Shown: piece by piece, positions 16,832 through 61,581 of the stretch
How positions within the stretch are numbered: the first letter of the stretch is position 1
Layout: each line of letters starts with the position of its first letter
Source of the DNA: Gilliamella sp. B3022
GTDB taxonomy: Bacteria > Pseudomonadota > Gammaproteobacteria > Enterobacterales > Orbaceae
Direction: 5' to 3'
Assembly (NCBI RefSeq): GCF_028751545.1
Contig: NZ_CP071867.1
Coordinates: forward strand, 903,306-967,305
Length of the DNA: 64,000 nucleotides
Made by a program: the position numbers and the translations under genes
Notes under the pieces: generated by a model
What the model was told of the DNA's origin: nothing
The model's database searches: none
Seen by the model: the letters and a program-made list of their open reading frames with translations, nothing else

Positions 16832-17374
16832 ATGCTAGATAAATATAAATTAACCCAAGATGATATCAACTTATTTAAAAATAGCTTTGGAGATGCCAAA
16901 AAGTTAAAACAAGATACTGTGCTACACAAACCACAAAAGCGTTCACAAAAAGTAATAGAAATCCAAAAACAGCAATATGAAAAAATTAATGCTGAATTTT
17001 ATTTTTCTGACGATTATCAACCACTATTACAAGAAGATCCCATTCGATATAGTAGAAAAAATGCTGATCCTAACGAAGTTAAAAAATTACGACGCGGTTT
17101 TTATGAGCCTGAATTTTTTTTAGATTTACATGGCTTAACACAACAAGAAGCCAAAAAAGAGATAGCCGCGCTTATTGCAGCTTGTTTGCGAGAAAAAAAT
17201 CCTTGTGCATGTATTATGTATGGACATGGAAAAAACATATTAAAAAAACAAACACCAATGTGGCTTGCACAGCACCCAAAAATTCTTTGCTTTCATCAAG
17301 CACCAAAAGAATTTGGGGGCAATGCTGCGTTACTTATTTTATTAGATATCAATGATGAATTAGCAAATAATTAA
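16832..17374 (+). CDS. smrB: Ribosome-rescue endonuclease SmrB
   Basis: A 180-aa protein with an N-terminal charged helical region (FKNSFGDAKKLKQDTVLHKP) and a C-terminal Smr domain with LDLHGLTQQEAK, the MYGHGKNILK motif and LAQHPKILCFHQAPKEFGG. This matches E. coli SmrB (183 aa) along its full length. SmrB cleaves mRNA between collided ribosomes. It is probably co-transcribed with nth. Confidence 0.94.
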   Translation: MLDKYKLTQDDINLFKNSFGDAKKLKQDTVLHKPQKRSQKVIEIQKQQYEKINAEFYFSDDYQPLLQEDPIRYSRKNADPNEVKKLRRGFYEPEFFLDLHGLTQQEAKKEIAALIAACLREKNPCACIMYGHGKNILKKQTPMWLAQHPKILCFHQAPKEFGGNAALLILLDINDELANN

Positions 17375-17686
17375 TCATTGCCAATTAAAACATTTGAATA
17401 TATATCAAAATCTCGCCAAATTTTTATCACTAATGCTCTACTTGCAATATTTACAGTTGTATAAGTATATTACTAATGAGTAACAATAAATTATGTAGAG
17501 ATTCATCATATATTATTCACAAGAATTATAACGATGATTAATTACTGTCATATAACGTATATGAATATTTTAAAAATAATTAAAATTGAATAATAAGGTA
17601 TGAATACTTTATATTGAAAATGTGTCTTAGAAATAGAAATTCAATATCAATATACGATAACAAATATAATTTAATATTATGAAAGC
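17375..17686. other. AT-rich gap after smrB
   Basis: About 310 bases between the smrB stop and the 3' end of ryhB. No open frame, repeat or recognisable site is seen. No clear hairpin terminator for smrB is visible. Confidence 0.3.
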
Positions 17687-17784
17687 AAAAAAGCCAGCCT
17701 AGATAAGCCAAGCTGGCAAACATTGGAAGCAATGTGAGCAATGTCATACTTTATTAGAAATCTTTCAGAGTTCTAATAAAGCAC
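17687..17784 (-). ncRNA. ryhB: RyhB iron-starvation small RNA
   Basis: The minus strand contains GACATTGCTCACATTGCTTC (within 17724-17745), which agrees with the conserved seed core of E. coli RyhB as I recall it. The architecture also matches. A 5' hairpin has 11-bp arms at 17749-17759 and 17771-17781. The unpaired core follows, then a rho-independent terminator (GCCAGC at 17712-17717 pairing with 17693-17698) and a T6 run at 17687-17692. A Fur box overlaps the promoter immediately upstream. The predicted length is about 95-98 nt, against 90 nt in E. coli. RyhB base-pairs with Hfq to repress mRNAs of iron-using proteins when iron is low. The exact 5' end is inferred from the -10 element. Confidence 0.93.
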
Positions 17785-17790
17785 AAATTA

Positions 17791-17821
17791 ATGATAATGA
17801 TTCTCATTATTAAAAGCAAGC
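17791..17821 (-). promoter_or_regulatory. ryhB promoter with Fur box
   Basis: The 19-base stretch 17793-17811 matches the Fur consensus GATAATGATAATCATTATC at 16 of 19 positions. On the minus strand a -35-like TTGCTT (17816-17821) lies 17 bases before a -10-like TATCAT (17791-17796), so Fur would cover the -10 region. The site lies between two convergent genes and can only serve the small RNA. Confidence 0.88.
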
Positions 17822-17994: not shown

Positions 17995-20119
<2,125 letters not shown>

Positions 20120-61130: not shown

Positions 61131-61487
61131 TTATTTCTTGATTGGCTTACGCGGTCCCTTACGGGTACGAGCGTTAGTCTTAGTGCGTTGACCACGAACC
61201 GGAAGTCCACGACGGTGACGCATGCCACGATAACAACCAAGGTCTAATAAACGCTTGATACTCATAGTTACTTCACGACGCAAATCACCTTCAACTGTGA
61301 ATTTAGCGACTTGTTCACGTAACGTTTCAATCTGATCTTCAGATAGTTCTCTGATCTTAACATGTTCTGGAATACCAGCTTCAGCACAAATTGTCTTAGC
61401 GCGGGTACTTCCGATACCATAAATTGCTTGTAAAGCAATTACAGCATGTTGTTGATCAGGAATGTTAATGCCTGCTATACGGGCCAC
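61131..61487 (-). CDS. rpsM: 30S ribosomal protein S13
   Basis: A 118-aa protein with [20 protein letters not shown] and the basic tail [20 protein letters not shown]. The length equals E. coli S13. It is the first gene of the alpha operon, 169 bases after rpmJ, with a hairpin (61582-61600) between. Confidence 0.98.
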
Positions 61488-61581
61488 TATGCACTCCTTT
61501 ATTGTTAATGTTTAGTAAAATCACTATACTGAAAAGCCCGTTTTCAGGATACTCAAACAGCGATTTTACAAATAAATTTAG

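Follow-up and report, generated by a model that had tools for sequence, protein, structure and literature searches.

The window (the whole 64,000-nucleotide stretch of Gilliamella sp. B3022 DNA that was analysed) contains, between the convergent genes smrB and obgE, a predicted small RNA on the minus strand together with its putative promoter and a Fur-type box, arranged as follows:

16832–17374, plus strand: smrB, convergent neighbour (NCBIfam SmrB; synteny)
17687–17784, minus strand: RyhB small RNA, predicted transcript of ~98 nt (Rfam RF00057 and fold; start inferred from the position of the −10 hexamer)
17687–17717, minus strand: intrinsic terminator, GC stem and T6 (fold of the window sequence and consensus fold)
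17720–17735, minus strand: second hairpin, ACATTG-CTTC-CAATGT, containing the 3′ half of the core (consensus fold)
17725–17745, minus strand: base-pairing core, GACATTGCTCACATTGCTTCC (free of substitutions in an alignment of 31 distinct sequences, of which two have an insertion)
17749–17781, minus strand: 5′ hairpin with perfect 11-bp arms, 17749–17759 and 17771–17781 (fold of the window sequence)
17791–17796, minus strand: −10 hexamer TATCAT, overlapped by the Fur box (read from the sequence)
17793–17811, minus strand: Fur box AATAATGAGAATCATTATC, over the promoter (17 of 19 positions against the consensus)
17814–17819, minus strand: −35 hexamer TTGCTT, with a 17-bp spacer to the −10 hexamer (read from the sequence)
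17995–19155, minus strand: obgE, upstream neighbour kept in Orbaceae (NCBIfam Obg_CgtA; synteny)

The gap holds no open reading frame of at least 60 amino acids, in agreement with a preliminary description that had read it as otherwise gene-free; the core, the 5′ hairpin arms and the T6 terminator that it had assigned to the minus strand were all found where it had placed them. A scan of the 64-kb window with the Rfam covariance model for RyhB, a check that the same description had proposed, gave a match to RF00057 at 17685–17753 on the minus strand (55.8 bits, E = 1.2 × 10−7), which exceeds the gathering score of 55 by just 0.8 bits. Both the conserved core and the Rho-independent terminator expected of a RyhB family member are present. 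Together with genus-wide conservation (below), the match supports the earlier assignment to a true RyhB ortholog: judged by its sequence, the window RNA is an orthologous RyhB, a predicted Fur-repressed, Hfq-type base-pairing small RNA that would be made at iron shortage. Elsewhere, the window contains an Alpha operon ribosome binding site (RF00140, 100.3 bits, 61455–61571, minus strand).

The window RNA is predicted to fold into the 5′ hairpin, a 6-bp hairpin that includes the core's 3′ half and the terminator. In the consensus fold, five of the six pairs of the second hairpin are kept in all 31 sequences and the other in 30 of the 31, so these pairs hardly vary and provide no test of the structure. 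The 5′ hairpin is absent from the 31-sequence consensus fold, and its support is thus that of the window's own fold. Covariation in the RyhB alignment is slight: one terminator stem pair is altered on both sides, from GC to AU, in 5 of the 31 sequences.

Over the promoter, where a Fur box with 16 of 19 consensus bases had been described, we counted 16 matches out of 19 on the plus strand and 17 on the transcribed one, and this was the sole site with at least 16 of 19 matches in a plus-strand scan of the window. Fur boxes matching the consensus at 14 to 18 of 19 positions were found at all 36 Orbaceae loci examined. The genome itself has genes for a Fur equivalog (269 bits against a cut-off of 146), a second Fur-family protein and Hfq (PF17209, E = 3.2 × 10−28). 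The conserved box and the presence of fur and hfq genes support the earlier proposal of Fur control, and iron control in vivo and Hfq binding are what these features predict.

Across 60 genomes, including the window's own, 42 matched RF00057 at E 0.001 or better and 31 reached the Rfam cut-off. Matches were present in 33 of the 35 Gilliamella-group genomes, a group that takes in two more distant 'Orbaceae bacterium' strains (ESL0721 (G004) and ESL0727 (G010)); the two misses (G005 and G024) are assemblies that are 81% and 67% complete. RyhB also occurred outside Gilliamella in Zophobihabitans entericus, Frischella japonica and Orbus hercynius; ryhB lies next to obgE at all 33 loci of the Gilliamella group as well as in these three species. 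The smrB gene adjoined ryhB in 33 of 33 Gilliamella-group loci and was not found in the stretches read from Zophobihabitans, Frischella and Orbus. Of the smrB–obgE gap, for which the preliminary description had proposed a comparison among Orbaceae, the obgE side is conserved in four genera and the smrB side was found in the Gilliamella group only. The position of ryhB after obgE in four Orbaceae genera marks RyhB as an old family trait and, given that two E. coli genomes have ryhB between yhhY and yhhX (in line with the location named in the preliminary description), the obgE position is probably ancestral to these Orbaceae. A second, lower-scoring Zophobihabitans match (31.4 bits) was taken as chance, as no RyhB core was present at that locus (L039).

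The core is free of substitutions across the 31 distinct aligned sequences, while the 5′ part and the terminator loop drift. Its two insertions are a 9-nt tandem duplication in one Gilliamella-group genome (G033) and a single A in Zophobihabitans. The duplication consists of three ACATTGCT units (L038:3024–3052), and one of the same type is present in E. coli strain 23AR0151 (L383:3008–3037); the two seem to have arisen independently, with slippage at the core's own repeat the likely cause. The extra A of the Zophobihabitans core lies mid-core (CTCAACATT; L037, G035). Two loci from order-level relatives (L003 and L043) each carry two RyhB-like cores on one strand, 179 and 366 bases apart.

One further reading of this conserved RNA, that it also encodes a peptide comparable to RyhP, is hardly credible. 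It draws on an AUG at the core start (window 17745–17747, minus strand) in 36 of 36 Orbaceae loci, and on the claim, in sections of a report on E. coli O157, of a RyhP peptide, MAHIASSIT, with an ATT start (PMC5331693). The Orbaceae frame runs into the terminator T-run without a stop in 30 of the 36 loci, no ribosome-binding site was seen before the AUG and, according to the same sections, the O157 RyhP uses another frame (PMC5331693). A RyhP-like peptide was rejected on these grounds. In place of the AUG at the Orbaceae core start, ACG stands in the two E. coli sequences that were read.

RyhB is the model iron-sparing RNA, and the usual explanation of its effect runs through succinate dehydrogenase (SDH) and SodB. 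The preliminary description had listed both sdh and sodB among the targets to be predicted, a list that proved only partly tenable. For sdh, the sdhC/D family (PF01127) gave no match over the cut-off in the 35 genus genomes (G032 had a weak one), and exceeded it in 18 of the 25 other genomes searched. This fits a survey of 95 Gilliamella genomes, sections of which report several TCA-cycle genes missing from all genomes and a conserved capacity for formate and lactate fermentation (PMC11325843). For sodB, the superoxide dismutase (SOD) family had one match each in 30 of 34 genomes (29 of the 29 good ones), and the N-terminus was of the MAYTLP kind in all 30. The SOD of the window's own genome, the sole copy scored, reached 344.5 bits against the Mn model (below its cut-off of 363) and 172.1 against the Fe model, and the best relatives with solved structures are Mn SODs. 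On these comparisons, the SOD found in Gilliamella is Mn-type, not sodB. That the classical targets sdhC/D and sodB were not found is a property of the host genome and was not used to exclude the RNA from the RyhB family.

These same absences, of sdhC/D over the cut-off in the genus and of a SOD other than the Mn-type, would fit RyhB being a relic with little function since the loss of its main targets. The pattern of conservation makes this very unlikely: the core is free of substitutions against a drifting 5′ part, the Fur box is kept at every one of the 36 loci and the gene itself was found in 33 of the 35 genus genomes.

Candidate targets were sought in the window's own genome by complementarity to the core. 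The motif RAGCAATGT, which is complementary to part of the core, occurred at 71 sites and its reversed control at 22, and AGCAATGTGAGYAA with at most two mismatches had 85 against 32; either excess could stem from composition or coding bias, and neither is used in support of a claim. A wobble-tolerant scan with the 21-mer was discarded, with 12 matches (13 for its reversed control) and no signal beyond RyhB itself. In 70 loci covering all but one of the RAGCAATGT sites, a plausible start was close to the site in three cases (L118, L176 and pflA); the remaining site was added later and entered only a ranking of 312 leaders. The pflA gene (NCBIfam PFLA, 425 bits, cut-off 375) carries AAGCAAUGUGAGUAAU at −31 to −16 of its leader, offering 16 uninterrupted pairs with the RyhB core, one of them G–U, and a duplex of net −14.1 kcal/mol after opening costs. 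In the 312-leader ranking, pflA was third (−23.1), after L118 (−24.2) and L176 (−23.5), and five shuffled cores reached −20.8 to −23.6 in the same set, so a single-genome ranking by energy fails to separate targets from chance and the case for pflA, which was picked after viewing the 71 seed sites and 312 leaders of one genome, rests on conservation. The gene starts at L118 (minus strand, near 1501; a gene resembling tmcA) and L176 (near 731) match or surpass pflA in their pairing with RyhB.

Orthologues of pflA were found in 33 of the 35 genus genomes, the exceptions (G014 and G031) being 74% and 59% complete; six loci from viral contigs were left out of the pflA comparison. Pairing at −15 kcal/mol or better was predicted for 27 of the 33 leaders (26 of the 31 distinct ones), and 19 of the 31 distinct leaders reached −19 kcal/mol. 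Over the 31 distinct leaders the mean was −19.25 kcal/mol, compared with −8.37 (s.d. 1.43) for 1,000 shuffled cores, none of which was as low (best shuffle −13.67), in a test that ignores shared ancestry among the leaders. Excluding the four genomes closest to the window's own left 27 leaders with a mean of −18.7, and a set of 29 (without L200 and L334) gave −19.4, again with 0 of 1,000 shuffles as low in either case.

Conservation of the site has exceptions and bounds. Six of the 33 loci pair worse than −15 (L206, L211, L212, L214, L330 and L332), including the leader of G004 (L214, −8.9), where the site is weak or absent; in G010 (L215) the best duplex is off-place, at −43 to −20, and these two genomes are the most distant members of the group. 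One duplex is stretched (L203, −56 to −14), and a G-to-A change at the centre of the duplex, seen in a large clade, breaks it into 9 + 7 pairs. Beyond the genus, pflA leaders paired at −9.2 to −12.2 (five of nine order-level relatives being readable) and that of Zophobihabitans at −13.9, and because of this weaker pairing the pflA site looks like a Gilliamella feature. A terminator-like hairpin lies between pflA and the upstream frame, presumably the end of PflB, and a conserved promoter-like block lies directly upstream of the pairing site; together, these suggest that pflA may have a short leader of its own.

Seven other leader sets were compared with pflA, which was the strongest of the eight (0 of 1,000 shuffles as low). 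The corresponding counts were 2 for erpA, 21 for cysE, 77 for smrB, 101 for sodA (not significant), 382 for rpmA, 561 for eamA and 814 for obgE, the rpmA and eamA sets being small (2 and 7 distinct leaders). The obgE, smrB, rpmA, eamA and sodA sets all fell within 1.5 s.d. of their shuffles. All 18 distinct erpA leaders pair with RyhB in the start region (−12.4 to −18.0; L346–L362 and L369), and cysE, with 19 distinct leaders, pairs more weakly. In E. coli, erpA is a proven target that RyhB represses via pairing near its start, as described in sections of PMC5040110.

These comparisons bear on a different account, in which RyhB is genuine and the complementarity in pflA is fortuitous or has been preserved for something else (a protein site or a structure of the leader), with RyhB acting instead on erpA, cysE or other iron genes. 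We consider this account unlikely, if the most substantial of the alternatives weighed here. It gains from the erpA and cysE results, from the E. coli precedent and from the promoter-like block immediately upstream of the pflA site. The strength of the pflA signal among the eight sets argues against incidental pairing, and erpA as the main target is disfavoured in that its match extends over the start codon and the first codons, where coding constraint accounts for part of it. From the pairing in its leaders, erpA has probably been kept as a second target in Gilliamella, and may be an old one.

Taking these lines of evidence together, we think it likely that the window encodes an orthologous RyhB whose best-supported target is the pflA mRNA, in a genus in which SDH and Fe-SOD were not found. 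The preliminary description had not listed pflA among the targets. With iron present, Fur would hold ryhB off; when iron is short, RyhB would be made, bind Hfq and open its 6-bp hairpin, and could then base-pair with positions −31 to −16 of the pflA leader, beside an AGAGA-type ribosome-binding site. Such pairing would block pflA translation and/or trigger decay of the mRNA. Pyruvate formate-lyase (PFL), lacking the PflA activase, would form no glycyl radical and stay inactive, the 4Fe–4S cluster of the activase would be spared and pyruvate would go to lactate or through other routes to acetyl-CoA. A requirement of the PFL activase for a 4Fe–4S cluster is stated for C. difficile in sections of PMC6311696. 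Everything that follows pairing in this scheme, pflA repression and the metabolic outcome alike, is what we infer from it.

As a RyhB, the Gilliamella RNA is unremarkable, a well-supported representative of a known family; its interest lies in the retention of RyhB where two textbook targets were not found, together with a conserved new candidate target in pflA. We lean, with some reserve, towards a regulon re-centred on pflA, in which the retained RyhB of a fermentative bee symbiont would act as an iron-responsive switch between formate and lactate fermentation, with products reaching the bee host. A lineage that keeps RyhB with an unchanged core, and in which SDH and SodB were not found, offers a direct test of small-RNA regulon rewiring upon the loss of main targets. 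Should pflA be the target, iron in the gut of the bee would determine which fermentation products this core symbiont makes.

Compared with RyhB of E. coli, the Gilliamella RNA shares an identical 21-nt core (strain MB20), the order of 5′ part, core and terminator, and an upstream Fur-type box. It differs in its 5′ part, bearing out a difference that the preliminary description had noted, in lying after obgE instead of between yhhY and yhhX, in the perfect 6-bp hairpin that holds the 3′ half of its core and in belonging to a genus where sdhC/D and Fe-SOD were not found. The E. coli RyhB–erpA pair resembles the proposed interaction in that pairing occurs near the start of a gene of Fe–S metabolism, as it does for Gilliamella erpA, and differs in that pflA is not named as a target in the available sections of that report (PMC5040110). 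Our literature search found nothing on RyhB in Gilliamella or Orbaceae and, in the accessible parts of publications mentioning both RyhB and pflA, no direct link between the two. Sections of two expression studies report pfl genes decreasing at low iron, in Salmonella in egg white (PMC5428311) and in Clostridioides difficile (PMC6311696); direct RyhB–pflA pairing is not stated in those sections, and the Salmonella table marks pflA as an iron protein, with no Fur or RyhB reference in its row (PMC5428311). In both organisms, as far as these sections describe it, the decrease in pfl expression runs in the same direction as the response proposed here for Gilliamella (PMC5428311, PMC6311696).
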